The notes beneath the pieces are model-generated. The model saw only the letters and a program-made list of their open reading frames with translations, was not told where the DNA came from and searched no databases. Below are positions 17,364-30,980 of a stretch of 64,000 nt of DNA, piece by piece. Source of the DNA: Alphaproteobacteria bacterium (GTDB lineage: Bacteria; Pseudomonadota; Alphaproteobacteria; Ferrovibrionales; Ferrovibrionaceae); NCBI GenBank assembly GCA_017307375.1, contig JAFKFH010000003.1:558001-622000 (forward strand), read 5' to 3'. Every line of letters starts with the position of its first letter. The stretch's first letter is position 1. A program made the position numbers and the translations under genes.

Positions 17364-19496
17364 ATGGCAACCAGCATGAACATGGCTGAAGCGGCGCACA
17401 ACCCTCACCCGCCCGCCGAGGTCGCCGACGCGCCCGTCAGCGCCGTCGCCAACCAGTCGATCCGCGTGTCGGTCGACCTCTTGGAAAACCTGATGACGAT
17501 GGTTTCCGAGCTGGTGCTGACCCGCAACCAGCTGCTGCAGATGGTGCGCAGCCTGGACAATTCGGAATTCACCGTGCCGCTGCAGCGGCTGAGCCATGTG
17601 ACGACCGAGCTGCAGGAAGGCGTCATGAAGACGCGCATGCAGCCGATCGGCAATGCCTGGGCCAAGCTGCCGCGCATCGTCCGCGATCTTTCGGTCGAGC
17701 TCGGCAAGAAGATCGACCTGCAGATGCACGGCGCCGAGACCGAGCTGGATCGCCAGGTCCTCGAGCTGATCAAGGACCCGCTGACCCACATGGTCCGCAA
17801 TTCGGCCGACCATGGCATCGAACTGCCGGCCGATCGTCTGCAGGCGGGCAAGCCCGAAGCCGGGCGCCTCGTCCTGAACGCCTTCCATGAAGGCGGGCAT
17901 ATCGTCATCGAGATCCGCGATGACGGCCGCGGGCTGAACACCCGTCGCATCCGCCAGAAGGCGATCGAGAACGGGCTGGCCACCGAGGCCGAACTCGACT
18001 CGATGCCGATCCAGCAACTGCACATGTTCGTGTTCAAGCCCGGGTTCTCGACCGCGGCGGCGGTTACGTCGGTGTCCGGCCGCGGCGTCGGCATGGACGT
18101 GGTCAAGACGAACATCGAGAAGATCGGCGGCACGGTCGAGCTGAAGTCGGAAGAGGGCAAGGGCGCAACCTTCACGATCAAGATCCCGCTGACGCTCGCC
18201 ATCGTCTCGGCGCTGATCGTCGAAAGCGCCACCGAACGCTATGCCATCCCGCAGACCAGCGTCGTCGAACTCGTCCGCGTCTCCGGCGATTCCGAGATGA
18301 AGATCGAGCGCATCAACGACACCGCGGTGCTGCGCCTGCGCAACCGCCTGCTGCCGCTGGTCTTCCTCGACCAGACCCTGCGGCTGGTGCCGGCAACCGA
18401 CGAGATCGATACCCAGTCGGAGAAGTTCATCGTCGTCTCGCTGGTCGGGTCCTACCAGTTCGGCATCGTCGTCGACCGCGTGTTCGACACCGAGGAAATC
18501 GTCGTCAAGCCGGTGGCGCCGATCCTGCGCGACATCCCGATGTTCTCGGGCAACACGATCCTGGGCGACGGCTCGGTGATCATGATCCTCGACCCGAACG
18601 GCATCGCCTCGGCCTCGTCGGCGGCCGCGGTCGCCGAGACCACCGCCGTCACGGACGACGTCCACCACGCCAGGAGCGGCGAGCGGACGGCCCTGCTGCT
18701 GTTCACCGCCGGCGGGCCCGAGCCGCGGGCGGTGCCGCTGTCGCTGGTCGCGCGCCTCGAAGAGGTCGATGTCGGCCAGATCGAATCGGCCGATGGCCGC
18801 CATGTCGTGCAGTATCGCGGCAAGCTGATGCCGCTGGTGGTGATGCGCGACAGTTTCCGCATGCGGACCGAAGGCCGCCAGCCGATCCTGGTCTTCTCCG
18901 ACCAGGACTCGACGCTGGGCCTGATGGTCGACGAGATCGTCGACATCGTCGAATCGGAACTCAACATCGAGCTGCGCTCGACCGACCAGGGCATTCTCGG
19001 TTCGGCTGTCATCGCGGGCCAGGCGACCGAGATCATCGACGTGGGCTTCTACCTGACCCGTGCCTTCGGCGACTGGTTCAGGAGCCGGACGGACGTGCCC
19101 TTCGGCCAGGCGGACGATCGCCATCGCGTGCTGCTGGTGGACGACAGCCCGTTCTTCCGCAACCTGATGGTGCCGCTGCTTTCGGTCGAGGGTTACGCGG
19201 TCGAGACGGCCGAAACGGCGGAAGGCGCGCTGAAACGGCGTGACGACGGCGAGCACTTCTCCGCGATCATCTCCGATATCGAGATGCCGGGCATGAACGG
19301 GTTCGACTTCGCCCAGCAGGTGCGCCATGACGCGCGCTGGGCAGGCACGCCGATCATTGCCCATTCCTCGCACGCCAGTGCGGCCGATTTCGCCCGCGGC
19401 CATGCCGCAGGCTTCACCGACTACATATCGAAGGCCGACAGGGGCGCGCTGCTGACCAGCCTCGCGCAGATCCTGTCCGGCGGGGGGAACGCGTAA
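17364..19496 (+). CDS. cheA: CheA-type hybrid kinase lacking the P1 (Hpt) domain
   Basis: A 710-aa chemotaxis kinase that starts directly at the P3 dimerisation domain (about 30-95, SIRVSVDLLENLMTMVSELV). The P4 ATPase has intact motifs (KDPLTHMVRNSADHGIELP, DDGRGLNTRRI, GRGVGMDVVKTNIEKIGG). A CheW-like P5 (about 275-415), a second CheW-like unit (about 430-565) and a receiver (about 585-705; Asp638 in SDIEMPGMNGFDF) follow. The usual alphaproteobacterial N-terminal Hpt with its HTIKG histidine is absent. There is no room for it before the divergent transporter gene at 17196. It resembles Rhodobacter sphaeroides CheA4 (P3-P4-P5), which phosphorylates the P1 of a partner protein. Translationally coupled to cheW. 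Confidence 0.92.
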   Translation: MATSMNMAEAAHNPHPPAEVADAPVSAVANQSIRVSVDLLENLMTMVSELVLTRNQLLQMVRSLDNSEFTVPLQRLSHVTTELQEGVMKTRMQPIGNAWAKLPRIVRDLSVELGKKIDLQMHGAETELDRQVLELIKDPLTHMVRNSADHGIELPADRLQAGKPEAGRLVLNAFHEGGHIVIEIRDDGRGLNTRRIRQKAIENGLATEAELDSMPIQQLHMFVFKPGFSTAAAVTSVSGRGVGMDVVKTNIEKIGGTVELKSEEGKGATFTIKIPLTLAIVSALIVESATERYAIPQTSVVELVRVSGDSEMKIERINDTAVLRLRNRLLPLVFLDQTLRLVPATDEIDTQSEKFIVVSLVGSYQFGIVVDRVFDTEEIVVKPVAPILRDIPMFSGNTILGDGSVIMILDPNGIASASSAAAVAETTAVTDDVHHARSGERTALLLFTAGGPEPRAVPLSLVARLEEVDVGQIESADGRHVVQYRGKLMPLVVMRDSFRMRTEGRQPILVFSDQDSTLGLMVDEIVDIVESELNIELRSTDQGILGSAVIAGQATEIIDVGFYLTRAFGDWFRSRTDVPFGQADDRHRVLLVDDSPFFRNLMVPLLSVEGYAVETAETAEGALKRRDDGEHFSAIISDIEMPGMNGFDFAQQVRHDARWAGTPIIAHSSHASAADFARGHAAGFTDYISKADRGALLTSLAQILSGGGNA

Positions 19497-19975
19497 TGGC
19501 CAATGCAATTGTCGTCGCCAAGTCCGGTGCATTGGCCGGGACGGGCTCGGCCGATTACCTGACCGTCACGATCGGCGGGCAGCGCTTCGGCATCCCGGTC
19601 GCCTCGGTCCAGGACGTGCTGGGCCCGCAGAAGATCACCCGCGTCCCGCTCGCCCCGCCCGAAATCGCCGGCGCCCTGAACCTGCGCGGCCGCATCGTCA
19701 CCGCCTTCGACGTGCGCCGCCGCCTCGGCCTGCCCCCGGCTGCCGCCGGGGGGATGAGCGTGGTGGTCGAATATCGCGGCGAACCCTACAGCCTGATGAT
19801 CGATTCGGTGTCGGAAGTGCTGTCGCTGCCCGACTCGGCCTACGAGGCCAGCCCGCCGACGCTGAATCCGCGGTGGCGCGAGATCTCGGGTGGCATCTAT
19901 CGGCTTGAAGGCGGCCTGCTGGTGGTGCTGGAAATCGACCGGCTGCTGAGCTTCGGTACCGCGCTCGCGGCCTGA
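19496..19975 (+). CDS. cheW: CheW chemotaxis coupling protein
   Basis: A 159-aa CheW linking chemoreceptors to CheA. After about 17 variable residues the CheW fold reads YLTVTIGGQRFGIPVASVQD, RVPLAPPEIAGALNLRGRIV, VVVEYRGEPYSLMIDSVSEV and a C-terminal IYRLEGGLLVVLEIDRLL. The ATG shares one base with the cheA stop (TAATG at 19494-19498). No cheY, cheR or cheB is adjacent, so this is a two-gene auxiliary cluster that must draw on components encoded elsewhere. Confidence 0.95.
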   Translation: MANAIVVAKSGALAGTGSADYLTVTIGGQRFGIPVASVQDVLGPQKITRVPLAPPEIAGALNLRGRIVTAFDVRRRLGLPPAAAGGMSVVVEYRGEPYSLMIDSVSEVLSLPDSAYEASPPTLNPRWREISGGIYRLEGGLLVVLEIDRLLSFGTALAA

Positions 19976-20038: not shown

Positions 20039-21319
20039 TCAGCGTTTCTCCACGCCGCACCAATCCGCCATGAACACGGCCAGCACCTGGGCGACCTCGA
20101 TGGTCGAGGCGATGTCGACCCATTCGTCGATCGAATGATAGGCGCCGGCCTTCGGGCCGTAGCAGGTGGCCGGGATACCGCCGTAGAGCTGGAAGAAGCG
20201 GGCATCGGTGGTCGCGGTCGAGGCCATCTCGGCGATCGGCAGGTTGGTGATGCGGGCATGCGCCGCGCTCAGCGTCGTCATCAGCGGCGCCTCGCGGTCC
20301 ATCGCGCAGCCCTCGGCCTGGAAGCCGTGATAGCGGATCGAGGCTTTCGCCCCCCGCAGACCGGGCCGGGTGGCGACGGCCTCGGCCACCGTGGCCTCGA
20401 TCTGGCGCCGCACCTCGGGCAGCGTCATGCCGGGATAGAAGCCGACGCGCACCTCGATCGAGGCGGCGCAGGGCACCGTCGAGGCCCAGTCGCCACCGGA
20501 CACCTTGCCCAGGTTGAAGTTGACCGGGTGGTTATGGCCGTGGAAGCAGGGATGGCGGTTCTCGGCCTTGTTCCACTCGCCCTCCAGCGCGCGCAGCGCG
20601 TCGAACAGCTCGTAGGCCGCCTCGATGGCATTGATGCCGGCCGCGGTGTCCAGCACATGGGCCGGCCGGCCGGTCAGGTCGATCGTCAGCCACATCACGC
20701 CGAGCTGGGCGATCATCAGGGTCTGGTTGAACGGTTCCGGGATGATCGCGGCATCGGCGCGATAGCCCTGTGCCAGGCAGGCCAGCGCGCCATTGCCGGT
20801 GCACTCCTCCTCGATCACCGACTGCATGATCACCGGCGCCGCCGGCTGCAGGCCCAGTGCCGCCAGCGCCTCGAAGGCGAGGCAGTAGGCGACGATTCCG
20901 GCCTTCATGTCGCCGGACCCGCGGCCGTAGACGCGGCCGTCGCGCACCACCGGCTTGAACGGCGGATCGGTCCACAGGTTCGCCGGCCCGGTCGGCACCA
21001 CGTCGATATGGCCGTTCAGGATCAGCGAGCGGCCGCCGCCGGCCGAGCGGTGCAGGCCGACGACGTTCTCGCGGCCGGAATAACTGTCGATCACCGGCGG
21101 CGAAAAGCCCGGCAGGTCGCGGATACGGTCGAGATCGATGTCGAAGCGCTCGACGGTCAGCCCCAACCGTGCGAATTCCGCCGCCATCAGGTCCTGCGCC
21201 CCCTGCTCCTCGCCCAGCAGGCTGCCCTCGGCGACCAGATCGCAGAGAAAGCCGACGCTACGGTCGGCCAGCGCGTCGGTCGCGGCGCGGATATCGGTGA
21301 CCAGACCCGAATCGATCAT
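20039..21319 (-). CDS. M20 (ArgE/DapE-type) deacylase
   Basis: A 426-aa zinc-dependent deacylase or peptidase of the ArgE/DapE/acetylornithine deacetylase superfamily. Metal and catalytic motifs: LILNGHIDVVPTG, YGRGSGDMKAGIVAY, SVIEEECTGNGALA, AAIIPEPFN and the C-terminal GAYHSIDEWVD. A dimerisation lid domain lies between. Such enzymes hydrolyse N-acyl amino acids or similar amides. It is the last gene of a minus-strand run with a LysR-flanked importer, a dimethylformamidase-like protein, an aminotransferase and a BKACE. It overlaps the GNAT gene by four bases (ATGA), so it probably deacylates an intermediate of that pathway (inference). Confidence 0.9.
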   Translation of the reverse strand: MIDSGLVTDIRAATDALADRSVGFLCDLVAEGSLLGEEQGAQDLMAAEFARLGLTVERFDIDLDRIRDLPGFSPPVIDSYSGRENVVGLHRSAGGGRSLILNGHIDVVPTGPANLWTDPPFKPVVRDGRVYGRGSGDMKAGIVAYCLAFEALAALGLQPAAPVIMQSVIEEECTGNGALACLAQGYRADAAIIPEPFNQTLMIAQLGVMWLTIDLTGRPAHVLDTAAGINAIEAAYELFDALRALEGEWNKAENRHPCFHGHNHPVNFNLGKVSGGDWASTVPCAASIEVRVGFYPGMTLPEVRRQIEATVAEAVATRPGLRGAKASIRYHGFQAEGCAMDREAPLMTTLSAAHARITNLPIAEMASTATTDARFFQLYGGIPATCYGPKAGAYHSIDEWVDIASTIEVAQVLAVFMADWCGVEKR

Positions 21320-21777
21320 CCCTCGTCTCCCTTCAGGCGGGCCAGCGCGTCGCCCTCGATCACATAGATCCGTTCATCCGCCGCAGGGCTGAGCCCCTCG
21401 CGCTCGTAGAAGCGCCGGGCGGCGCCGTTCGCGCGGTCGACCGACAGCCGCAGATAGGCGGCACCGGTCCGGCGCACCGCGGCCGCCAGCAGGGCGCGGG
21501 CAAGGCCGGTGCCCCTCGCCCGCGGGGCGACGTAGAGATCCTGGATATAGACGCCGACGCGGCCCCGCCAGCTCGAAAAGCTCGGGAAATGCAGGCACAG
21601 CCCGACCGCCTCGCCGCCGTCCCAGGCGATCAGCGCGGCCCAGGCATCGGCATGGCGCCGGAAATCGTCGGCGGTCGACGTCGCCGTCTTGCCCAGCGCC
21701 ATCCCGGCCGACATCGCCTGGATCATCGCATGCACGGTCGCCGCGTCGTCGGCGGTGGCGGGGCGGATCTCGATCAC
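21316..21777 (-). CDS. GNAT-family N-acetyltransferase
   Basis: A 153-aa GNAT acyltransferase. Motif A is in VAPRARGTGLARALLAAAVR (acetyl-CoA pyrophosphate loop R/Q-x-x-G-x-G/A pattern), preceded by the beta strands YIQDLYV and followed by AAYLRLSVDRANGAARRFYER, typical of the family. It lies one base after the BKACE stop and is coupled to the M20 deacylase. An acetyltransferase next to a deacylase suggests either protection or activation by N-acetylation during catabolism, or resistance to a toxic amine. The substrate is unknown. Confidence 0.88.
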   Translation of the reverse strand: MIEIRPATADDAATVHAMIQAMSAGMALGKTATSTADDFRRHADAWAALIAWDGGEAVGLCLHFPSFSSWRGRVGVYIQDLYVAPRARGTGLARALLAAAVRRTGAAYLRLSVDRANGAARRFYEREGLSPAADERIYVIEGDALARLKGDEG

Positions 21778-21778
21778 G

Positions 21779-22711
21779 TCAGAACGCCACCCGGTCGCCG
21801 CCCTTCAGGCCGAGCATCGCCCGTGCCTCGGCCGGCGAGGCGACCTCGAGCGACAGGGCCTCGAGGATCGTGCGGATCCGGCGGACCTGGTCGGCGTTCG
21901 AGGTGGCAAGTTCGCCCGGCCCCAGCATCAGGCTGTCTTCCAGTCCCACGCGCACATTGCCGCCCATCGTCGCTCCCATCGTGATCAGCGGCATCTGATA
22001 GCGCCCTGCCCCCAGTACCGAGAAGGCATAGTCGACCCCGAACAGCTTGTCGGCAATAAGCTTCATGTGGCCAAGGTTTTCCGGGTCGCCGCCGATGCCG
22101 CCCAGCACGCCCAGCACGAACTGGATGAAGAACGGCGGCTTGATCAGACCGCGGTCGCGGAAATGCGCGAGGGTATAGAGATGGCCGACGTCGTAGCATT
22201 CGAACTCGAAGCGCGTGCCGAACCCGTCGCCCAGTTGCGACAGGATCTGCTCGATATCCTTGAAGGTATTCTTGAAGATCGTGTCGCGGGTGTTTTCGAG
22301 CAGCCGGGGTTCCCAGTCGAACTTCCAGGCGGGATAGCGGCCGACCAGCGGGAACAGACCGAAATTCATCGATCCCATGTTCAGCGAGCACATCTCCGGC
22401 TGGGCCAGGGTCGGCGCGGCCAGGCGCTGCTCCAGCGTCATGGCGGAACTGCCGCCGGTCGAGATGTTGATGACCGCGTCGGTTGCCTGGCGGATGCGCG
22501 GCAGGAACTGCATGAACACGTCGGGGTCGGGTGTCGGCCGGCCGTCCTGCGGGTCGCGCGCGTGCAGATGCAGGATCGCGGCCCCCGCCTCGGCCGCCGC
22601 GACCGACTGCTCGACGATCTGGTCGGGGGTGCAGGGCAGATAGGGGCTCATCGTCGGGGTATGGATCGACCCGGTGACGGCGCAGGTGATGATCGTCTTG
22701 CGGCGGGCCAT
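21779..22711 (-). CDS. BKACE-family beta-keto acid cleavage enzyme
   Basis: A 310-aa (beta/alpha)8 enzyme of the 3-keto-5-aminohexanoate cleavage family (formerly DUF849). Family members condense a beta-keto acid with acetyl-CoA and split it to acetoacetate and a new acyl-CoA. Visible hallmarks: IITCAVTGSIHTPTMSPYLP, the zinc-ligand motif AAILHLHARDPQDGRP, INISTGGS, FEFECYDVGHL and ITMGATMGGNVRVGLEDSL. The substrate group differs widely between subfamilies and cannot be fixed here. It lies five bases after the aminotransferase gene, which could supply a beta-keto acid from a beta-amino acid. Confidence 0.92.
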   Translation of the reverse strand: MARRKTIITCAVTGSIHTPTMSPYLPCTPDQIVEQSVAAAEAGAAILHLHARDPQDGRPTPDPDVFMQFLPRIRQATDAVINISTGGSSAMTLEQRLAAPTLAQPEMCSLNMGSMNFGLFPLVGRYPAWKFDWEPRLLENTRDTIFKNTFKDIEQILSQLGDGFGTRFEFECYDVGHLYTLAHFRDRGLIKPPFFIQFVLGVLGGIGGDPENLGHMKLIADKLFGVDYAFSVLGAGRYQMPLITMGATMGGNVRVGLEDSLMLGPGELATSNADQVRRIRTILEALSLEVASPAEARAMLGLKGGDRVAF

Positions 22712-22716
22712 GGCCT

Positions 22717-24066
22717 TCAGCCCCGCGGCAGGTCGAGTTCGGCGGCGAGGGCGTCGAGGCTGTCCTCCAGGATCGCCATGACCTCGTCGACCTGCCCTTC
22801 GTCGATGATCATCGGCGGGCAGACCAGGAAGTGATCGCCCTCGAACCCCCCGCGGGTGCGCCGGGAATAGATGATCAGCCCGCGGTCGTAGGCCAGGTCG
22901 ACGATGCGGCTATAGGCATTCTTCTCCTTGGGCAGCGGCCGCATGGTCAGCGGATCGGCCACCATTTCCGCGGCCAGCAACAGCCCCTTGCCGCGCACGT
23001 CGCCGATGAAGGGGAAGCGGTTCTTCAGGCCTTCCAGCCGCGTCTTGAGGCGGTCGCCCATCCGCGCCGCATTGCCGATCAGGTCCTGGCGCTCGATCTC
23101 GTCGAGCACGGCGAGGCCGGCGGCGCAGGCCAGCGGGTTGCCGGCATAGGTATGGCCATGCTGGAAGCCACCGGCATCCAGCACCGGCTGCACCATCCAG
23201 TCGGGTGCGACCATCGCGCCGAGCGGGCTGTAACCGGCGGCAAAACCCTTCGACAGCGCGATCAGGTCGGGCTTCTGGTTCCAGTGCTCGGCGGCGAGGA
23301 ACCTGCCGGTGCGCCCCGCGCCGCTCATCACCTCGTCATAGATCAGGATGATGCCCCAGCGGTCGCAGATCTCGCGGATGCGGCCGTAATAGCTGTCGGG
23401 CGCGACCAGCGCGCCGGTCGAGGCGCCGCCGACCGGCTCCATGATGAAGGCGAGCACGGTTTCCGGCCCCTGCGCGCGGATCTCGGCCTCCAGCATGTCG
23501 GCATAGCGCAGGCCGCGCTCCTCCATGGTCAGGTCGTCACGGTCGAGATAGGCCGTGGGTGCCGGGATCTTCGGCATCTCGTGCATCATCGGCGCGAAGG
23601 GCTGGGTCAGCGCGGTGTAGCCGGTGACGGCCAACGCGCCCAGCGTGCTGCCGTGGTAGCTGGGGAAGCGCGAGATCACCTTGAAGCGGCCGTGCTGCCC
23701 CTTCGCCACCGCGTATTGCCGCGCCATCTTCAGGCAGGATTCGACCGCTTCCGATCCGCCGGAAACGAAGAAGACCTTGTCCATGCCCGGCGGCATGTGC
23801 CCGACCAGGCGCGCGGCCAGATCCTCGGCGGCATCGTTCTCGAAATGCAGCCGATAGGCGAAGGTGACGCGGTCGAGCTGGGCGCGCATCGCGGCCAGCA
23901 CGTTCGGGTTCGAGTGGCCGATATTGACGACCATGGCGCCCGACGACCCGTCGATCACCTTGCGGCCCTGCTGGTCGAACAGGTAGATGCCCTCGGCGCG
24001 GTCGACCAGCGGCCGGCGCAGGCGGGTCTGGTAGAACAGATGCGAAGGCCGGCGCTCCAGCGTCAT
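22717..24066 (-). CDS. Class III PLP-dependent aminotransferase
   Basis: A 449-aa omega-type aminotransferase. Motifs: GSSGAMVVNIGHSNP near the N-terminus, FVSGGSEAVESCLKMARQY, SYHGSTLGALAVTGY, MEPVGGASTGALVAPDSYY, ILIYDEVMSGAGRTGRFLAA (PLP-nitrogen Asp) and the Schiff-base lysine in IALSKGFAAGYSPLGAMV. Related enzymes act on omega-amino or beta-amino acids with pyruvate or 2-oxoglutarate. ATG 24064-24066 overlaps the stop of the upstream dimethylformamidase-like gene (ATGA), which fixes the start. Context with a BKACE suggests production of a beta-keto acid; that is inference. Confidence 0.92.
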   Translation of the reverse strand: MTLERRPSHLFYQTRLRRPLVDRAEGIYLFDQQGRKVIDGSSGAMVVNIGHSNPNVLAAMRAQLDRVTFAYRLHFENDAAEDLAARLVGHMPPGMDKVFFVSGGSEAVESCLKMARQYAVAKGQHGRFKVISRFPSYHGSTLGALAVTGYTALTQPFAPMMHEMPKIPAPTAYLDRDDLTMEERGLRYADMLEAEIRAQGPETVLAFIMEPVGGASTGALVAPDSYYGRIREICDRWGIILIYDEVMSGAGRTGRFLAAEHWNQKPDLIALSKGFAAGYSPLGAMVAPDWMVQPVLDAGGFQHGHTYAGNPLACAAGLAVLDEIERQDLIGNAARMGDRLKTRLEGLKNRFPFIGDVRGKGLLLAAEMVADPLTMRPLPKEKNAYSRIVDLAYDRGLIIYSRRTRGGFEGDHFLVCPPMIIDEGQVDEVMAILEDSLDALAAELDLPRG

Positions 24067-25676
24067 GATTTCACTCCGAGATAACGATCCAACACATTGC
24101 GGGTGACCTGCTCGACCATGGCGTCGCGCCGCCTCAGCCCGGCGACCCATTCGCAGCTGCCGGCATGGAACACCTCGCCCCTGCCGCGCGGAAAGTTGAC
24201 GATCATGCCGCAGCCGCGCTTGACCCGGTCGACCGATGCCGGGCTGTCGTCGCCGATCAGCGTGGTGGCGGCAAAGCGCGCGTCGTCATCGGACAGGAAC
24301 TGGTCGTCGGCGGCGATCACGTCGCTTTCCTCCTTCAGCGACGACAGGCCCAGCGCCAGGATGACGAGACCGTCGGGCGTGCCCTCGATGCCGGTCGGTT
24401 CGGGCAGGCCGCCGCGGATGACGTAGTCGAGACCGTCGACCTCGTAGCCGAAGACATGGCCGTCGGCGCCGAGGATATCGCCGTAATAGAGGCCGGTGCC
24501 GGCGAAGGCCCAATGATCGGGTCGGTAGACCGGGAAGCCGCGCGTGCCGCGCGGGGCGCAGCCGCCCCAGCCGACATAGAGGCCGCGGGTGGCGTTCAGC
24601 CCGAAGGTCATGGCGCCGGGCCGGCCGACCTCGGGGGCTTCCCAGGATGTCGTGGTGCGGGACTTGTCCTGCTGACGGTAGACCGGGTCCTCGGCGCGGG
24701 CGCGATATTTGTAGCAGGTCTGGCGCCTGCCCTCGTCCTCCAGCCGGGTCTGCCACATGAAGTTCCCAGCGAAGCGGGCGACGCGGCCGCCGCGCTCGAC
24801 ATAGGCGTCGATCGCGTCGCGCATCTCCCAGGTCCAGTACTCGTCATGGCCGACGCAGACGACGAGGGCGTAGCCGTCGAGGATCGCCGGATCGAACTGC
24901 AGCTCGTGCTGGCTGCACAGGTCGACGGCGTAGCCCTGGCGCTCGGCCCAGCGGAAGAAGAGGCTGTCGTAGCTGGCCCAGCCCGCCGAGGCGTATTTCT
25001 TCGAATGGCCGGACGCGAACGCCCATTCCATGTGCGGATAGCGGGGTACGGTGGCCGGCGGCAGCGTGACCGACAGCGGAACGCGCGGCGCGTCGTCCGG
25101 CAGGCGGACGAAGCCGCGGCAGAACGGCCGCTGGGTCGAGACGGTCGTGGCGTACTGATTGCGGTTGGGGCCGGTGATGCCCTGGTAATGGTTGGACCCG
25201 CCCCAGGTGTTGTAGCTGGTCCACGAGCCGGTCGCGGCGATCTGCAGGATCCGGCCAGGCTTGGGCCCGCGCGTCGGCCGCACGATGAACAGGTGGTCGT
25301 AGGTGGCGCCATCAGCCGTCAGCGTGACCCGGTAGGCGCCCGACGGCCAGTCGGGCGGAATCGCGAAGCGGTGGCTGACCTCCCAGCCGCAGCCGGTGAC
25401 CGAGCACTGGTCGGGCGTTTCCTGCCAGCGGCAGGGCAGGCCGCGGGCCGCCATCACCGGCCGCAGCGCGGCGCCGTCGCGCAGGATCGCGAGATCATAT
25501 GTCGAGGCGGTGGCCGAGACATGCAGCGACACGGTCTCGCCGGCGGCATAGGCGTAACGATCGGTATAGGCCCAGATCTCCGCCCGCGGCGCGTCCATGC
25601 CCGGGTATTCGTAGTAGTGGCCGAGCACCGCCTCGCGGCGCTGTTCCGGCGTCAGGCCGTATTCGGTGAAGGTCAT
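24063..25676 (-). CDS. N,N-dimethylformamidase large-subunit-like protein
   Basis: A 537-aa protein resembling the beta (large) subunit of N,N-dimethylformamidase, an iron-dependent amidohydrolase. Visible features: an N-terminal beta-sandwich (AYAAGETVSLHVSATAS, PPDWPSGAYRVTLTADG), the central GRILQIAATGSWTSYNTWGG, and an amidotransferase-like core with VVCVGHDEYWTWEMRDAID and VARFAGNFMWQTRLE. A C-terminal domain ends NFPRGRGEVFHAGSCEW. It has no small-subunit gene beside it and is shorter than the about 760-aa DmfA2. It probably cleaves another C-N bond. A GGAG sits ten bases before ATG 25674-25676. Coupled to the aminotransferase. Confidence 0.8.
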   Translation of the reverse strand: MTFTEYGLTPEQRREAVLGHYYEYPGMDAPRAEIWAYTDRYAYAAGETVSLHVSATASTYDLAILRDGAALRPVMAARGLPCRWQETPDQCSVTGCGWEVSHRFAIPPDWPSGAYRVTLTADGATYDHLFIVRPTRGPKPGRILQIAATGSWTSYNTWGGSNHYQGITGPNRNQYATTVSTQRPFCRGFVRLPDDAPRVPLSVTLPPATVPRYPHMEWAFASGHSKKYASAGWASYDSLFFRWAERQGYAVDLCSQHELQFDPAILDGYALVVCVGHDEYWTWEMRDAIDAYVERGGRVARFAGNFMWQTRLEDEGRRQTCYKYRARAEDPVYRQQDKSRTTTSWEAPEVGRPGAMTFGLNATRGLYVGWGGCAPRGTRGFPVYRPDHWAFAGTGLYYGDILGADGHVFGYEVDGLDYVIRGGLPEPTGIEGTPDGLVILALGLSSLKEESDVIAADDQFLSDDDARFAATTLIGDDSPASVDRVKRGCGMIVNFPRGRGEVFHAGSCEWVAGLRRRDAMVEQVTRNVLDRYLGVKS

Positions 25677-25812
25677 GGCGTGAATGCTCCAAGCTCGATC
25701 ATCGTGCCGATACAGGCCGGCAAACACCGATATGGGCGCGTGATGGTGCCTTGAAGGGCCGACGACTGGCCTTGTCGGGACAGGCCTTCCGGGCGACGGA
25801 TAGGTGTGCGTG

Positions 25813-26571
25813 TCATGCCGCGAGATACTTGCGCAGGAAGTTGCGGGTGCGATCGTGGCGCGGCCTGGTGAAGATCTCGCCCGGCGGGCCTTCCTCGACC
25901 ACCACGCCGCCGTCCATGAACAGGATCCGGTCGGCGACGTCGCCGGCAAAGCGCATCTCGTGGGTCACGATCAGCATGGTCATGTGCTCGGCGGCCAGCT
26001 GCTTCATCACCAGGTTGACCTCGTCGACCAGTTCCGGATCCAGGGCGGACGTCGCCTCGTCGAACAGCATCACCTTGGGCTGCATCGCCAGGGCGCGGGC
26101 GATCGCCACGCGCTGCTTCTGCCCGCCCGACAGCTTGGACGGATAATAGTCGATCCGGTCGGCCAGCCCCACCTTGGCCAGCAGGTCGCGGGCCAGCTCG
26201 TCGGCTTCGCGCCGGCCCAGTCCCTTCAGCAGCATCGGTGCCATGGTGATGTTCTCGCGCGCGGTCAGATGCGGGAACAGGTTGAAGTGCTGGAACACCA
26301 TGCCCATCTGCTGGCGCACCGCGTTGATGTGGCGCTCGAAGGCGCTGCCCGAGAGCCTGGCGTTGACCAGCACGCCGTCGAGATGGATCTCGCCGCCGTC
26401 GAGGGTTTCCAGGTGATTGATCGCGCGGAGCAGCGTGCTCTTGCCCGAACCCGACGGGCCGATGATCGCGATGATCCGGCCGCGCGCGACGGTCAGGTCG
26501 ATTCCCTTCAGCACCTCGACGTCGCCGAAGCGCTTAATGGCCTGCCGCACCTGAACCATGGGCATCGTCAT
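25813..26571 (-). CDS. Polar amino-acid ABC importer ATPase (GlnQ type)
   Basis: A 252-aa ATPase. Walker [20 protein letters not shown]-loop [15 protein letters not shown], signature [16 protein letters not shown], Walker [17 protein letters not shown], switch [15 protein letters not shown]. The ending [17 protein letters not shown] is typical of the GlnQ/HisP group. ATG 26569-26571 overlaps the permease stop (ATGA). It is the last importer gene. A 136-bp gap without a recognisable gene (25677-25812) separates it from the dimethylformamidase-like gene, so the catabolic genes may have their own promoter or be read through. Confidence 0.95.
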
Positions 26572-27227
26572 CGCGTGACCTCGACTTTCTTCTCGATGCG
26601 GCCGAGGCCGAATTCCAGCACGGCGTTCAGGCCATAGTAGAGCGCCGCGGCGGTGATGTAGAATTCGAACGGCCGGAAGGTTTCGGATATGGCGAGCTGC
26701 GAGGCATGCACCAGCTCGGCCACGCCGATCACCGAGACCAGCGCCGATTCCTTCAGCAGCGCGATCAGGTTGTTGCCCAGCGGCGGGATCACGTTGCGGA
26801 TCGCCTGGGGCACGACGACATGACGAAAGCTCTGATAGCGGCTCAGCCCGAGGCTGCGCGCGCCTTCGTTCTGTCCGGGATCGACCGCGACGATCGCGGC
26901 CCGGATCACGTCGGCGTTGTAGACGGCGAAATGCAGTCCCAGCCCGATGATGCCGGCAGCCAGGGCCGGGATATCGATGCCGATCTGCACCAGTCCGAAA
27001 TAGATCAGGAACAGTTGCAGCAGCAACGGCGTGCCCATGAACAGCCAGGCGACGAACCTGACCGGCAGCCGGATCGGCCACGGCGCGTAGAGGGCGGCCA
27101 GGGCAAAGCCGATGCCGCCGAAGAAGGCCAGCACGGCCGCAGCCGCGGTCAGGAATGCCGTCCACCCGGTGCCGATCAGCAGGATGTTCCAGTAGTCCGC
27201 GACGACGGTAAAATCGAGACCCCGCAT
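26568..27227 (-). CDS. Polar amino-acid ABC importer permease (second)
   Basis: A 219-aa inner-membrane permease of the HisM/GlnP group. It has about five hydrophobic helices and the EAA loop [20 protein letters not shown], followed by [20 protein letters not shown], characteristic of the His/Glu/Gln permease family. ATG 27225-27227 shares a base with the stop of the first permease (TGATG), and its own stop overlaps the ATPase start. The two permeases should form a heterodimer. Confidence 0.94.
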
Positions 27228-27874
27228 CAGCGCACCGCGAACCGGCCGTCGATCCAGGCGATCGCCCTGGCCGTCGCGTGGATGACGAGCAGATAGAGCG
27301 CCGCGGCGATGGCGAACATCTCGAATGGCTTGTAGGTCGAGCCGATATAACGCTGCGCGGTATAGGTCAGCTCGACCACCGAGATCGCCGAGACCAGCGC
27401 CGATCCCTTGATCAGCGCGATCGCATTGACGCCCAGCGGCCGGATCATCAGCCGCGCCGCCTGGGGCAGCACGACCTTGCGCAGGGCTTGAAAGCGGCTG
27501 AGGCCGAGGCTGCGCGCCGCCTCCGCCTGGCCGCGATCGACCGAGAGCAGGGCGCCGCGGATCGTCTCGGTCATGTAGGCGCCGATATTGACCCCGAGGC
27601 CGATGACGCCGGCGGCGAAGGGGTCGAGGTTGATGCCGACCTGCGGGCCGCCGAAATAGAGCACGAACAATTGGATCAGCGCCGGCGTGCCGCGGAAGAC
27701 GCTTACATAGACGGTGCCGATCGCCGCCAGGACGGGGTGGCGCGACAGGCGTGCCGCGGCCCCCAACCCGGCCAGGACCAGGCCGAGGGCCAGCGCCAGG
27801 AACGAGATCCGCACGGTCAGCCACGCCGCCTCGACGAAGAACGGCGCGACCTTGACCATCAGGGCGAAATCCAT
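27227..27874 (-). CDS. Polar amino-acid ABC importer permease (first)
   Basis: A 215-aa permease homologous to its neighbour. The EAA loop is [20 protein letters not shown], followed by [20 protein letters not shown]. The N-terminal segment has the family pattern [20 protein letters not shown]. It begins 26 bases after the binding-protein stop (27901). Together with the second permease, the ATPase and the binding protein it makes a complete importer for a polar amino acid or amino-acid-like amide. Confidence 0.94.
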
Positions 27875-27900
27875 GGCGCTGGTACCCGATCAGATGGCGA

Positions 27901-28674
27901 TCAGCGGATGTCGCTGCCGACCCACTGCATCGCGATCTTGTTGTAGGTGCCGTCGGCCATCATCTCGTCCAGTGCCTTCTGCATCGCCTTGGCCAGATCG
28001 GGGTTGTCCTTGCGGATGGCGATGCCGATGGCGACCGAGCCGCCCTCGATGCCGGGGGTGTCGAGCTGGCGGATCTTCTCGCCGCTTTCCTTGACCGCGA
28101 CGCGGATCGGGATGTTGTCGACGACGATGGCGTCGATGCGGCCGGCCTTCAGCTCCAGCAGCAGCTCGGGCAGGCCCTTGTAGGTGCGGATGGTCCAGCC
28201 GCCCTGGTCGCGGGCCCATTTCTCATGGGTTTCGCCCAGCGTCACGCCGATGGTCTTGCCCTTGAGGTCGGCCATGGTCTTGACCGCCGAAGCCTCGGCG
28301 ACGAAGACGCCGCGGCCGGCATGGTAATAGGGGCCGACAAAGTCGACGACCTTCTGGCGCGCCTCGGTGATGGTCATCGAGCCGACGATGGTGTCGTATT
28401 TCTTGGCGAGCAGGCCGGCGATGATGCCGTCCCAGGCCGTCGTCACGATCTCGCCCTTGACGCCGATGCGCCGGGCGATTTCCTGGCCGATCGAGGCGTC
28501 GAAGCCGACGACCTCGTTCTTGTCGTTGACGAAGTTGAACGGGGGATAGGCACCGGTCATCGCGATCTTCATCACCCCGGCCTTCTTGATGTCGGCCAGT
28601 TCGTCGGCCTGGGCGGGGGCCGCCACCGCGATCAGCGCCGCGAGCGCCAATCCGAGCGAAAACAGCGTCTTCAT
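27901..28674 (-). CDS. Periplasmic amino-acid-binding protein (SBP_bac_3)
   Basis: A 257-aa periplasmic binding protein with a Sec signal peptide (about 1-23, ending AAPAQA). Family 3 motifs: KIAMTGAYPPFNFVND, VVGFDASIGQEIARRIGV, WDGIIAGLLAKKYDTIVGSM, ITEARQKVVDFVGPYY and AIVVDNIPIRVAVKESG. The ARQKVVDF-type arginine usually holds the ligand carboxylate, so the ligand is probably an amino acid. A strong AGGAGGAGG stands eight bases before ATG 28672-28674. It is the first gene of the cluster, divergent from a LysR regulator. Confidence 0.93.
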   Translation of the reverse strand: MKTLFSLGLALAALIAVAAPAQADELADIKKAGVMKIAMTGAYPPFNFVNDKNEVVGFDASIGQEIARRIGVKGEIVTTAWDGIIAGLLAKKYDTIVGSMTITEARQKVVDFVGPYYHAGRGVFVAEASAVKTMADLKGKTIGVTLGETHEKWARDQGGWTIRTYKGLPELLLELKAGRIDAIVVDNIPIRVAVKESGEKIRQLDTPGIEGGSVAIGIAIRKDNPDLAKAMQKALDEMMADGTYNKIAMQWVGSDIR

Positions 28675-28725
28675 CCTCTCAACCTCCTCCTGTCAGATCG
28701 GAGAATGCTTGCTTTCGGGGCATCA

Positions 28726-28736
28726 TTTGCCAAATA
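28726..28736. promoter_or_regulatory. Candidate LysR-type operator
   Basis: ATTTG-C-CAAAT is an exact palindrome in the AT-rich centre of the 94-bp divergent region between the binding-protein gene and the LysR gene. LysR regulators bind AT-rich dyads of T-N11-A form between divergent promoters. It lies about 33 bp before the LysR start and about 52 bp before the importer start. Confidence 0.4.
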
Positions 28737-28768
28737 GATAATGGAAATAGCGATCATCGGTTTATGGA

Positions 28769-29770
28769 ATGACAAGACGCGCCGAACGCCTGGCCTGGGA
28801 TCTCGACTGGAACCTGCTGCGCACCTTCATGGTGATCGTCGAGGAGCAGTCGATCACGGCGGCCGCCGACCGGCTGGGCCTGAAGCAGCCGACCTTGAGC
28901 AATGCGCTGCGGCGGCTGGAGGACCGGCTGGGCCGTCGGCTGATCGAGCGCAAGCCGAACCAGTTCCGCGTCACCGCGGTCGGGCGGCTGCTGTATCAGG
29001 AATGCGTCGAGCTGTTCGGCACGGTCTCGCGCCTGCCGATCCTGCTGCGCGACGTGGAGGACGAGATCTCGGGCCATGTCGCGATCGCGCTGGCGAGCCA
29101 CGTGGTGTCGCCGGTGCTGGACGACGCGCTGGCCGATTTTCACCAGGCGCATCCGAAGGCGAGCTTCAAGATCGCGGTTTCGACCAGCCAGGATGTGGCG
29201 ACCGCCGTCGCCCAGAAGCGGGCCTCATTCGGCCTCTGCCTGGTCCATACCGAGGATCCGCGGCTGACCTACGAGGTGGCCTATCGTGAATTCTTCGGCT
29301 TTTTCTGTGGGCCGAAACATCGTCTTTTCGGGCGACAGGGGTTGAGCCTCGGGGATCTGCGGGGCGAGACGTCGGTGTCGTTCCAGACCGACCATCCCGC
29401 CGATGCCCTCCGCCGGGTGGCGCTGCTGCGGGCACAGGCGCAACTCGACGAGGGTGTCATAGGCGTCTCGTCGAGCCTGGAGGAAGTCCGGCGGATGATC
29501 GTGGCGGGGCTGGGCCTCGGGCCCCTGCCCCTGCATGTCGCCGCCCGCGACGAACGCGACGGCCTGTTGTGGCGTTTGCCGCCCTATGACGATCCGCCGG
29601 CGGTCGACATCTATCTGGTCGCGCACCCGCAGGCGAACCTGAACCGGGCAGAGGCCGGCCTGCTGGCGTTGCTGCGCCGGCGGATCGCCACGCTGCCGCT
29701 GGCCCGGCGAACCTACGGGCCGGATCCGGCGGCGGCCGCTGCGGGTGGCTTTCCGCTTATTTCACGCTGA
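28769..29770 (+). CDS. LysR-family transcriptional regulator
   Basis: A 333-aa LysR regulator. The N-terminal winged helix reads LDWNLLRTFMVIVEEQSITA, then RLGLKQPTLSNALRRLEDRL and GRRLIERKPNQFRVTAVG. The C-terminal co-inducer domain is of the periplasmic-binding fold (SGHVAIALASHVVSPVLDD, IVAGLGLGPLPLHVAARDE). The co-inducer is usually a pathway intermediate. It faces the importer and catabolic cluster at 28674-20039 and probably controls it. The C-terminal 30 residues are an Arg/Ala-rich tail beyond the usual family length (about 300). Confidence 0.92.
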   Translation: MTRRAERLAWDLDWNLLRTFMVIVEEQSITAAADRLGLKQPTLSNALRRLEDRLGRRLIERKPNQFRVTAVGRLLYQECVELFGTVSRLPILLRDVEDEISGHVAIALASHVVSPVLDDALADFHQAHPKASFKIAVSTSQDVATAVAQKRASFGLCLVHTEDPRLTYEVAYREFFGFFCGPKHRLFGRQGLSLGDLRGETSVSFQTDHPADALRRVALLRAQAQLDEGVIGVSSSLEEVRRMIVAGLGLGPLPLHVAARDERDGLLWRLPPYDDPPAVDIYLVAHPQANLNRAEAGLLALLRRRIATLPLARRTYGPDPAAAAAGGFPLISR

Positions 29771-30121: not shown

Positions 30122-30880
30122 TTATGGAACGGCACGTGCCGTGCGGCGGTCCACATGTACCCGCTTTACGGGTGCGGCGAAGACGAGGCCGACGGCCTTC
30201 ATCGTCTGGACCGGCAGGGCGACGCCGGTCTCGACCAGGGTCTTCTGGCGCAGCCGCCGCAACGAGGCGTCGAGGCCGCGGCTTTCCGGGCCGAGATCGT
30301 CGTAACCAAGTTCCGCGGCCAGCACCTGGCGCGAGACCGCGACCCCCGGCTGGCGGACGAGGCAATCGAGCAATTGGCTCTCCTTGCCGGTCAGCGCCAC
30401 GACGCGGCCGTTCGGGGCCACCAGCCGCCAGGTCTGCTGGTCGAAGGTCCACTGGTCGCCGGTCGCCATCGGCCCGTCGGCGCGGGTGCCGCGATCGCCC
30501 TGGACCCGGCGGTGCAGGTTGCGGGCGGCGGCGACCAGTTCCTCGCAATCGACCGGCTTGACGAAATAGAGATCGGCGCCGACCTCGAAACCGCGCAGGC
30601 GGTCGGCCGGGGTGCCGCGGCCGGTGACGATGATGATGCCCATGCTGGTGCGCTGGCTGAGGAAATCGGCGATCTGGGTGCCGTCGGTATCCGGCAGGTT
30701 CAGGTCGATCACCGCCAGGTCGAACTCGGCCACCGCCATTTCGCGGTAGAACGCCATCCCCGATTCGACCGAGGTGACCGCGAAATCGGCCAGGCGCAGG
30801 TAATCGGCGATCGCCTCGCGCAGGTCCGGGTCGTCCTCGACCAGGATGACGCTGATAGGCGATGTAAGGACGTCCGTCAT
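30122..30880 (-). CDS. OmpR/PhoB-type response regulator
   Basis: A 252-aa response regulator. The receiver domain starts ISVILVEDDPDLREAIADYL; the acceptor is Asp59 in LAVIDLNLPDTDG, the switch Thr is in IIIVTGRG and the Lys in LYFVKPVDCEEL. A winged-helix DNA-binding domain follows from about residue 150 (VVALTGKESQLLDCLVRQPG, RGLDASLRRLRQKTL). It is divergent from the sensor kinase at 30981 across 100 bp, which makes the two a likely cognate pair. The targets are unknown; autoregulation of the divergent region is plausible. Confidence 0.93.
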   Translation of the reverse strand: MTDVLTSPISVILVEDDPDLREAIADYLRLADFAVTSVESGMAFYREMAVAEFDLAVIDLNLPDTDGTQIADFLSQRTSMGIIIVTGRGTPADRLRGFEVGADLYFVKPVDCEELVAAARNLHRRVQGDRGTRADGPMATGDQWTFDQQTWRLVAPNGRVVALTGKESQLLDCLVRQPGVAVSRQVLAAELGYDDLGPESRGLDASLRRLRQKTLVETGVALPVQTMKAVGLVFAAPVKRVHVDRRTARAVP

Positions 30881-30980
30881 GATGCCTTGATGCCGCGCGT
30901 TGGATCGTTACGCTTAAGGTGCCTCTGCCGCTTGCTATAGTGCAAGCGTTCGATTTTCGCTCAGGGAAGTTAGACCGACG

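Follow-up and report, generated by a model that had tools for sequence, protein, structure and literature searches.

The ten genes at positions 20,039 to 29,770 of the window (the whole stretch of 64,000 nucleotides that was analysed) may form a LysR-controlled catabolic operon for a β-amino acid that carries two amino groups, the likeliest candidate being β-lysine (3,6-diaminohexanoate) or a small amide of it, a reading to which we give an even chance. The protein families, the gene order, some conserved catalytic positions and a common LysR box were read from the sequence; from these we infer every reaction and the substrate, and the case for β-lysine in particular is about evenly balanced.

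Organization of the gene cluster

The preliminary description had reported nine minus-strand genes with a divergent LysR gene, and the window ORFs and Pfam matches agree with it in positions, strands and families, each gene being an open frame on the strand given:

28769..29770, plus strand, divergent LysR-type regulator (Pfam HTH_1, LysR_substrate)
28724..28742, minus strand, LysR box ATTATCTATTTGNNNAATG, located within the divergent promoter (motif scan)
27901..28674, minus strand, periplasmic binding protein, family 3 (SBP_bac_3, PF00497)
27227..27874, minus strand, ABC permease 1 (BPD_transp_1, PF00528)
26568..27227, minus strand, ABC permease 2 (BPD_transp_1, PF00528)
25813..26571, minus strand, ABC ATPase, start codon somewhere in 26565-26571 (ABC_tran, PF00005)
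24063..25676, minus strand, amidohydrolase like N,N-dimethylformamidase (DMFase), 537 aa (DMFA2_C, PF20254, 233.6 bits)
22717..24066, minus strand, class III aminotransferase (AT3; Aminotran_3, PF00202)
21779..22711, minus strand, β-keto acid cleavage enzyme (BKACE; PF05853, 357.2 bits against a cut-off of 24.8)
21316..21777, minus strand, GNAT N-acetyltransferase (Acetyltransf_1, PF00583)
20039..21319, minus strand, M20 deacylase (Peptidase_M20, PF01546, and M20_dimer)

The last five genes are joined as tightly as had been described, with a 4-base overlap between the DMFase-like and aminotransferase genes (24063-24066), a 5-base gap before the BKACE gene, a 1-base gap before the GNAT gene, whose start codon is GTG, and another 4-base overlap between the GNAT and M20 genes. 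With its probable start at 25676, the DMFase-like gene is separated from the ATPase gene by 136 bases. A tRNA scan and an Rfam scan of the whole window gave no matches.

The importer had been taken to be of the amino-acid type, and the family-3 ABC system bears this out by its Pfam and best NCBIfam matches: those of the binding protein (27901..28674) are cystine and Lys/Arg/Orn types, and those of the ATPase are L-cystine and ectoine types, all below cut-off. Many of the clusters have a conserved LysR box in common. It has one match in the window and none in 100 shuffles (at most two mismatches), and it occurs with at most one mismatch in all 34 of the 80 named loci that have a LysR gene near the DMFase-like gene; at up to two mismatches, it is absent from all 46 named loci without LysR.

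Conservation and variants of the cluster

The block of importer, DMFase-like, aminotransferase and BKACE genes recurs in other alphaproteobacteria, and the clusters occur in several variants, their hosts being soil and plant-associated bacteria. The overlapping orders DMFase-like-AT3-BKACE and AT3-BKACE-GNAT-M20 are each conserved, the second being found without a DMFase-like gene in three genomes (L271-L273). The strict five-gene order that combines them, which had been proposed as a unit to search for, was seen only here; an M20 gene lies near the DMFase-like gene in 0 of 80 named loci, for which reason we rejected this order as a conserved unit, and in 0 of four further clusters with a DMFase-like gene. 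Because its parts recur in order elsewhere and the LysR box is common to relatives, the grouping goes beyond chance. The initial picture changes in that the DMFase-like gene forms a front end which some clusters do without.

A probable β-keto acid intermediate

The nearest NCBIfam family of the aminotransferase is PRK07483, at 458.5 bits and below the cut-off of 485. The BKACE exceeds the cut-off of NF053538 (3,5-dioxohexanoate-cleaving; 521.8 against 430 bits), a match that does not imply specificity, and stays below that of NF052387 (232.7 against 382 bits). It is close to BKACE15 of Paracoccus denitrificans (PDB 8rio, 8rip, 9hnf), which belongs to the same subfamily and aligns over nearly the full length. 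According to the available text of PMC10470551, Glu14 of Kce holds the free amine of the substrate, and Clostridium triacetate lyase has Trp16 at this position. The window BKACE shows neither the Glu nor the Trp there; because Ile16 replaces the amine-holding Glu14, a neutral, acetylated chain would fit as its substrate. The same Ile is common to BKACE15 and singles out no one substrate. BKACE15, the nearest characterised enzyme, accepts several neutral β-keto acids, 3,5-dioxohexanoate being confirmed, and its physiological role was stated as unknown in 2025 (available text of PMC11961710). The BKACE thus does not fall in a subfamily incompatible with an aminotransferase product, as the earlier proposal needed.

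In four genomes (L275, L276, L284 and Leeia), a 3-oxoacid CoA-transferase occupies the place of the BKACE, with a thiolase beside it in two, and these genomes hold only distant BKACEs (best 31-35% identity). Since a β-keto acid intermediate predicts such an exchange, a CoA-transferase standing in for BKACE supports the proposed order of transamination, β-keto acid and cleavage, and it is very probable that a β-amino acid is converted to a β-keto acid on which BKACE acts. Among Mesorhizobium genomes, 19 of 19 without a cluster BKACE, but 2 of 20 with one, encode at an unlinked site a BKACE that shares at least 91% identity with the L127 enzyme; a tree test of exchange between the cluster and unlinked enzymes was without power.

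A probable acetylation and deacetylation step

A GNAT 40-47% identical to that of the window lies near the DMFase-like gene in 75 of the 80 named relatives, and an HDAC-family protein does so in 77, so an acetylation and deacetylation step recurs with unrelated deacetylases, M20 or HDAC family. Together with the co-occurrence of GNAT and M20 genes in other loci (L271-L273, L275, L276), this agrees with the acetylation/deacetylation pair proposed earlier, and the second amine is likely handled as its N-acetyl derivative. The M20 deacylase matches NCBIfam PRK06837 (526 bits, cut-off 376). M20 and HDAC-family proteins may not be equivalent, because L274 holds both.

The GNAT matches eight NCBIfam families at E 0.001, including, weakly, streptothricin acetyltransferases (STAT, Sat3); the beta-lysine N-acetyltransferase AblB, for which an NCBIfam model reportedly exists, is not among the eight. 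A 4HBT thioesterase gene lies near 29 of the 80 named loci, and Pfam finds none among the ten window genes. In nine genomes whose core cluster lacks parts of the acetylation/deacetylation pair, we searched for these elsewhere: HDAC-family homologues (E 1e-20) were present in all nine, and the four inspected lay beside other genes, which looked transporter-like by eye. GNAT matches (E 1e-8) were present in six, at just 27-42% identity in G033 and Tistlia, and there was none at this threshold anywhere in genomes G057, G260 and G162.

The DMFase-like amidohydrolase

Solved relatives of the DMFase-like protein are an N-acetyl-(R)-β-phenylalanine acylase (8huy, 8i5a) and DMFase (6lvb), and the likeness to both is that of the C-terminal domain family. 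In DMFase, iron is bound by Tyr399, Tyr440 and Glu521, and His519 is catalytic (available text of PMC7686228). Tyr399, His519 and Glu521 align with Y155, H277 and E279 of the window protein, which are invariant in 19 of 19 alignment rows; the Tyr440 position lies outside the stretches covered by the alignments. The homology thus supports the C-N cleavage predicted for this protein. The predicted structure (mean pLDDT 52.6) was left unused.

Whereas DMFase and the acylase have 772-776 residues, the window protein has 537, with about 260 fewer between the first two matched stretches, and Pfam finds no DMFase small subunit among the ten cluster genes. For want of this stretch and this subunit, we discarded the idea that the cluster degrades the solvent dimethylformamide. 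Since the GNAT would undo any removal of an N6-acetyl group by the DMFase-like enzyme, the substrate of the latter must carry another amide; an amide of β-lysine or an N-acyl-β-lysine, as suggested by homology, is possible at somewhat less than even chance.

A proposed route for β-lysine

In the route that we propose, the family-3 ABC system would import the substrate, and the DMFase-like amidohydrolase would split the amide to give free β-lysine. The GNAT would acetylate N6, and the aminotransferase would convert N6-acetyl-β-lysine into 6-acetamido-3-oxohexanoate, from which BKACE and acetyl-CoA would yield acetoacetate and 4-acetamidobutyryl-CoA. The last steps, to 4-aminobutyrate, would fall to a thioesterase and to the M20 deacylase, in whose stead relatives have an HDAC-family deacetylase, often with a 4HBT thioesterase.

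Barker's group reportedly described the degradation of L-β-lysine in a Pseudomonas (EC 2.6.1.65, 3.5.1.51, 3.5.1.63), in which the terminal amine is said to be N-acetylated and the β-amine transaminated, followed by acetyl-CoA-dependent cleavage to acetoacetate and an acyl-CoA, and by deacetylation. Families for the acetyltransferase, the transaminase, the acetyl-CoA-dependent cleavage and the deacetylase are all present in the cluster; the Barker route is known to us as enzymes only, and is not known to include the DMFase-like amidase and binding-protein importer that the cluster has. The best explanation would be that the cluster encodes this N-acetylated route, preceded by a step of the DMFase-like amidase. 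The preliminary description knew of no described pathway with this set, which is probably wrong for the chemistry, given the β-lysine route; our literature search found no published description of genes for such a route. Its overall interpretation is supported as regards the importer, the C-N cleavage by homology, the BKACE step and the acetylation pair, but not as regards the strict five-gene unit.

A similar logic is known from ectoine degradation, where an Ehu importer and Doe enzymes handle an N-acetylated diamino acid with a deacetylase and a class III aminotransferase. The permease and ATPase of the window score near EhuA/C/D, but no ectoine model reaches its cut-off here and the BKACE step differs.

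Leeia bears on the carbon chain. Its DMFase-like gene is accompanied by two class III aminotransferases, an aldehyde dehydrogenase, a CoA-transferase pair and PcaF (PcaIJF-like genes), this PcaF being the only one over cut-off in the genome, where no PcaD over cut-off was found. This gene set fits a conversion of 3,6-diaminohexanoate to 3-oxoadipate and would point to a 3,6-diamino C6 acid; the argument comes from one genome, and the CoA-transferase models are general 3-oxoacid ones. Of 369 genomes in the class of Leeia, 2 match the DMFase-like protein, Leeia itself and another whose match is partial (38%).

Alternative substrates

Another β-amino acid (aromatic, aliphatic or β-ornithine-like) could be freed by the DMFase-like enzyme and degraded by the aminotransferase and BKACE, with the GNAT and deacetylase serving another amine or detoxification. 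The β-phenylalanine acylase among the nearest solved relatives, the several β-keto acids accepted by BKACE15, and five core clusters (L026-L029, L089) that manage with neither GNAT nor deacetylase are consistent with this, but the recurrent GNAT and deacetylase and the Leeia genes suggest that the substrate has a second amine and a chain of six carbons, and we consider it rather unlikely.

Less likely again is an acetylated polyamine or a polyamine-derived β-amino acid, for which the HDAC-family protein would be a true acetylpolyamine amidohydrolase and the aminotransferase and BKACE would handle a fragment. The nearest solved relatives of that protein are indeed acetylpolyamine amidohydrolases (3men, 3q9b), and L277, which carries the same LysR box, adds to APAH-BKACE-AT3 a RidA-family protein, an FAD oxidoreductase and a binding protein (SBP_bac_8) with weak similarity to PotD/YdcS. 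The window importer, however, is of the family-3 amino-acid type, an M20 gene can occupy the position of the HDAC-family gene, and we know of no polyamine route ending in a BKACE substrate. The β-lysine route accounts less well for variants that lack GNAT and for those that combine a different importer with an FAD oxidoreductase.

Catabolism of triacetate (3,5-dioxohexanoate), suggested by the NF053538 name and the confirmed activity of BKACE15 (available text of PMC11961710), is highly improbable, because by Pfam none of the ten genes belongs to the families of the other phloroglucinol-route enzymes and Ile16 differs from Trp16 of the Clostridium lyase (available text of PMC10470551), and the aminotransferase and GNAT would be idle.

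Significance

For the β-lysine route, we tentatively suggest that these clusters may be the missing genes of aerobic β-lysine degradation, headed by a shortened DMFase-type iron amidohydrolase, which would be a new kind of amidase and would open β-lysine amides such as those present in antibiotics from soil or in other conjugates. Which of the unrelated deacetylases (M20 or HDAC family) takes off the protecting acetyl group would then depend on the lineage. To our knowledge, no sequences are known for these enzyme steps, and if the suggestion is true, genes would be assigned to a breakdown route otherwise known from old biochemistry. It would also assign a function to the BKACE subfamily of BKACE15, its best-studied member, for which none was known in 2025 (available text of PMC11961710), show what a DMFase-type amidohydrolase does in nature, explain why HDAC-family deacetylases neighbour GNATs in many genomes of Mesorhizobium, Ensifer and their relatives, and predict a growth substrate for laboratory rhizobia.

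Organization of the cluster

The nine minus-strand genes at 20039-29770 and the divergent LysR gene lie where the preliminary description placed them, and family searches returned the families it had named. The last five genes, encoding a dimethylformamidase-like amidohydrolase (DMF-like), a class III aminotransferase (AT3), a beta-keto acid cleavage enzyme (BKACE), an N-acetyltransferase (GNAT) and an M20 deacylase, are as tightly joined as it held, by a 4-base overlap or a gap of 1-5 bases. The most likely start of the DMF-like gene is 25676, close to the alignment start of its homologues and 136 bases after the ATPase gene. The cluster contains no thioesterase, and its binding protein scored below every curated cut-off. 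The divergent promoter, 94 bases long, holds a candidate regulator site that occurs once in the window and in 0 of 100 shuffles (up to two mismatches):

28724-28742, minus strand, candidate LysR box ATTATCTATTTGGCAAATG in the divergent promoter

Chemotaxis and two-component-like genes, read by eye, flank the cluster (17364-19975 and 30122-32999); tRNA and Rfam scans of the window gave no match. Elsewhere in this genome (7.5 Mb, 41 contigs), a second DMF-like gene, about 49% identical (L040:8122-9792, contig 33), neighbours a family-5 binding protein, a GntR regulator and a class III aminotransferase.

Distribution of the DMF-like gene and its partners

At E 1e-20, the DMF-like protein matched in 16 of the 385 genomes of the class, including the window's own. 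Four others exceed 70% identity, and all four carry LysR with the arrangement SBP-PER-PER-ATP-DMF-AT3-BKACE, the first four being family-3 ABC importer genes; neither GNAT nor M20 was found in these clusters. The five aligned proteins were used as query for one scan of named genomes, which gave 242 relatives; the best 80 were taken further, mainly from Mesorhizobium, with Ensifer, Nitratireductor, Ochrobactrum, Brucella, Aliihoeflea, Tistlia, Leeia and others. In a tblastn search covering 5.5 kb before the DMF gene and 6 kb after it in these best 80 of 242, AT3 was close in 80, a deacetylase of the HDAC family (PF00850) in 77, GNAT in 75, BKACE in 49, the ATPase in 35, LysR and SBP in 34 each, a 4HBT protein in 29 and M20 in none, counts that are not independent because the loci were selected by the DMF-like protein, are Mesorhizobium-heavy and are in some cases truncated at contig ends. 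The strict five-gene order DMF-AT3-BKACE-GNAT-M20 was found in none of these other loci (M20 in 0/80 and 0/4); DMF-AT3-BKACE stands in 4/4.

In 46 of the 80 loci, for example L074, LysR, importer and LysR box are jointly absent near DMF-AT3, some of these loci being truncated at contig ends. Nine Mesorhizobium loci carry a 2-thiouracil desulfurase-family gene (PF04463) inside the cluster (e.g. L092:11746-12252), and L019 and L044:1043-1901 hold seemingly broken DMF-like genes, with internal stop codons or a split frame.

With a 19-row profile, the DMF-like protein matched N-acetyl-(R)-beta-phenylalanine acylase (E 1.2e-25) and DMFase (E 1.7e-23), and is about 260 residues shorter than both between the first two matched stretches. 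Among the DMFase residues named in the available text of PMC7686228, Tyr399, His519 and Glu521 align with Y155, H277 and E279, invariant in 19/19 rows; for Tyr440 no counterpart could be placed. Since the protein is common to the acetyl-type clusters and to Leeia, it should act before the routes diverge, as the first enzymatic step on the imported compound; any assignment of its own substrate would be a guess.

Possible exchange of the BKACE

The enzyme predicted to act on the beta-keto acid varies among loci. CoA transfer plus thiolysis accomplish the job of BKACE, and a 3-oxoacid CoA-transferase pair occupies its position in L275, L276 and L284 (tblastn), above the NCBIfam cut-off also in L275 and with a thiolase present in L276. 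The best BKACEs in these three genomes are 32-35% identical to that of the window, and the best in Leeia 31%.

For Mesorhizobium, 39 of the best 80 loci were compared. An unlinked BKACE sharing at least 91% identity with the L127 enzyme occurs in 19/19 genomes without a cluster BKACE versus 2/20 with one (Fisher 3e-9, genomes treated as independent), and one more of the 20 has an unlinked copy at 80%. A further BKACE at 69-72% is found in 8/20 and 6/19 genomes with and without the cluster gene, respectively, and extra copies at 59-62% in 3 of the 19. On the DMF tree the cluster-BKACE state needs eight changes, but just one is forced by well-supported branches, and a paired test has no power. 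In an overlapping set, all 11 genomes without a cluster BKACE hold some BKACE about 58-60% identical to the window's. This distribution suggests that the unlinked enzyme may replace the cluster one. The unlinked gene stands alone (L158:7992-8924, L159:7968-8900, L162:7789-8733), in L158 and L159 among conserved housekeeping-like genes, as judged by eye.

A proposed acetylation step

AT3 matched in 29 of the 385 genomes (E 1e-130) and M20 in 38 (E 1e-120). Five AT3 matches belong to the window cluster and the four DMF clusters; 18 neighbourhoods of the other 24 were examined. BKACE lies beside AT3 in 11, the CoA-transferase pair replaces it in three, one has AT3 with an HDAC-family gene and no BKACE, and three have AT3 alone. 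M20 or an HDAC-family gene occurs in 14 of the 18, and GNAT in seven. L271-L273 keep AT3-BKACE-GNAT-M20 without DMF (M20 68% identical), although in L271 about 740 bases separate BKACE from GNAT. These loci suggest an acetyl step with two DEACETYLASES, GNAT partnering two unrelated deacetylases, which supports the acetylated intermediate proposed earlier. The two deacetylases may differ in role, since both are present in L274, L289 and L290, the latter two being M20 loci without an AT3 match. A FAD oxidoreductase lies between them in L289 (8216-11182) and an EamA transporter in L290 (8363-12021).

Counting against the scheme, tblastn around the DMF gene found neither GNAT nor deacetylase in core clusters L026-L029 and L089. 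Elsewhere in the genomes, GNAT had no match (E 1e-8) in G057, G260 and G162, and matches at 27-42% identity in G033 and Tistlia. HDAC-family homologues exist in 9/9 genomes whose core cluster lacks such parts, at 48-72% in the alphaproteobacterial ones that have no linked copy; in four stretches read by eye, no pathway genes were linked to them. None of the eight NCBIfam families matched by the window GNAT at E 0.001 is a beta-lysine acetyltransferase model; this, the lack of a thioesterase in the window cluster and the low scores of its binding protein also weigh against the scheme.

Regulation and substrate

Among the best 80 of 242, 34/34 loci with LysR contain the LysR box with no more than one mismatch (32 exact), and 0/46 without LysR contain it when two mismatches are allowed. 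It is exact in L026-L029. In the 20 AT3/M20 neighbourhoods examined (L271-L290), it is exact in L277 and L285 and differs at one position in L274 and L283, at two in L280 and L281, and at four in L278, L279 and L282; none at up to three mismatches was found in L271-L273, L275, L276, L284 and L286-L290. In control stretches totalling 345,756 bases, a single match turned up at three or fewer mismatches. Since the box is found in clusters with other importers, these seem to share the LysR regulator, their importers being judged, except in L277, from a 31-35% ATPase match alone. In L277 the importer includes a SBP_bac_8 protein weakly like PotD/YdcS, and the cluster also holds a FAD oxidoreductase and a RidA-family gene, features that keep alive the rival reading of a polyamine-like substrate in place of beta-lysine, although we regard this rival as improbable. 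The nearest solved relatives of the HDAC-family protein are acetylpolyamine amidohydrolases (3men, 9gkz, 6phr, 3q9b).

The strongest hint of beta-lysine is the gene set of one genome, Leeia oryzae, read by enzyme names. Its DMF-like protein (71-73% identical) is accompanied, all in one direction, by a class III aminotransferase, an aldehyde dehydrogenase, a second class III aminotransferase, an ATPase, CoA-transferase A and B, PcaF and an AstE/AspA-family protein, the set also including a Lys/Arg/Orn-like SBP (below cut-off) and two permease-like genes. Two transaminations and one aldehyde oxidation would yield 3-oxoadipate if the starting compound were 3,6-diaminohexanoate, that is, beta-lysine. 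A protocatechuate route is unlikely for this set, because the linked PcaF (709.9 bits, cut-off 597) is the only one above cut-off in the genome and PcaD is absent at cut-off (best 96.6 of 255.85).

The BKACE pocket bears on the same question. The available text of PMC10470551 has Kce Glu14 hold the free amino group of the substrate; aligned via a third protein, the window enzyme has Ile16 at this position, and BKACE15 likewise has Ile. For BKACE15, the available text of PMC11961710 lists 3-oxohexanoate, 3,5-dioxohexanoate, 5-hydroxy-3-oxohexanoate, 3-oxopentanoate and malonate semialdehyde as substrates and gives its role as unknown. A neutral acetylated chain would fit such a pocket, and a free amine would fit it less.

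Such a chain would occur in known beta-lysine chemistry. In a Pseudomonas studied by Barker's group, L-beta-lysine is reportedly first N6-acetylated and then transaminated to 3-keto-6-acetamidohexanoate (EC 2.6.1.65), which is said to react with acetyl-CoA to acetoacetate and 4-acetamidobutyryl-CoA; deacetylation and hydrolysis of the latter reportedly give 4-aminobutyrate (EC 3.5.1.51, 3.5.1.63). No paper on genes for this route was among the matches listed, in a literature search thin on subscription journals.

The interpretation given in the preliminary description is partly supported and extended: its acetylated intermediate gains support, and its strict gene order was found in no other locus. 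It is quite probable that these clusters convert a beta-amino acid into a beta-keto acid for BKACE, with a second amine masked by acetylation, and the chances are about even that this beta-amino acid is beta-lysine.
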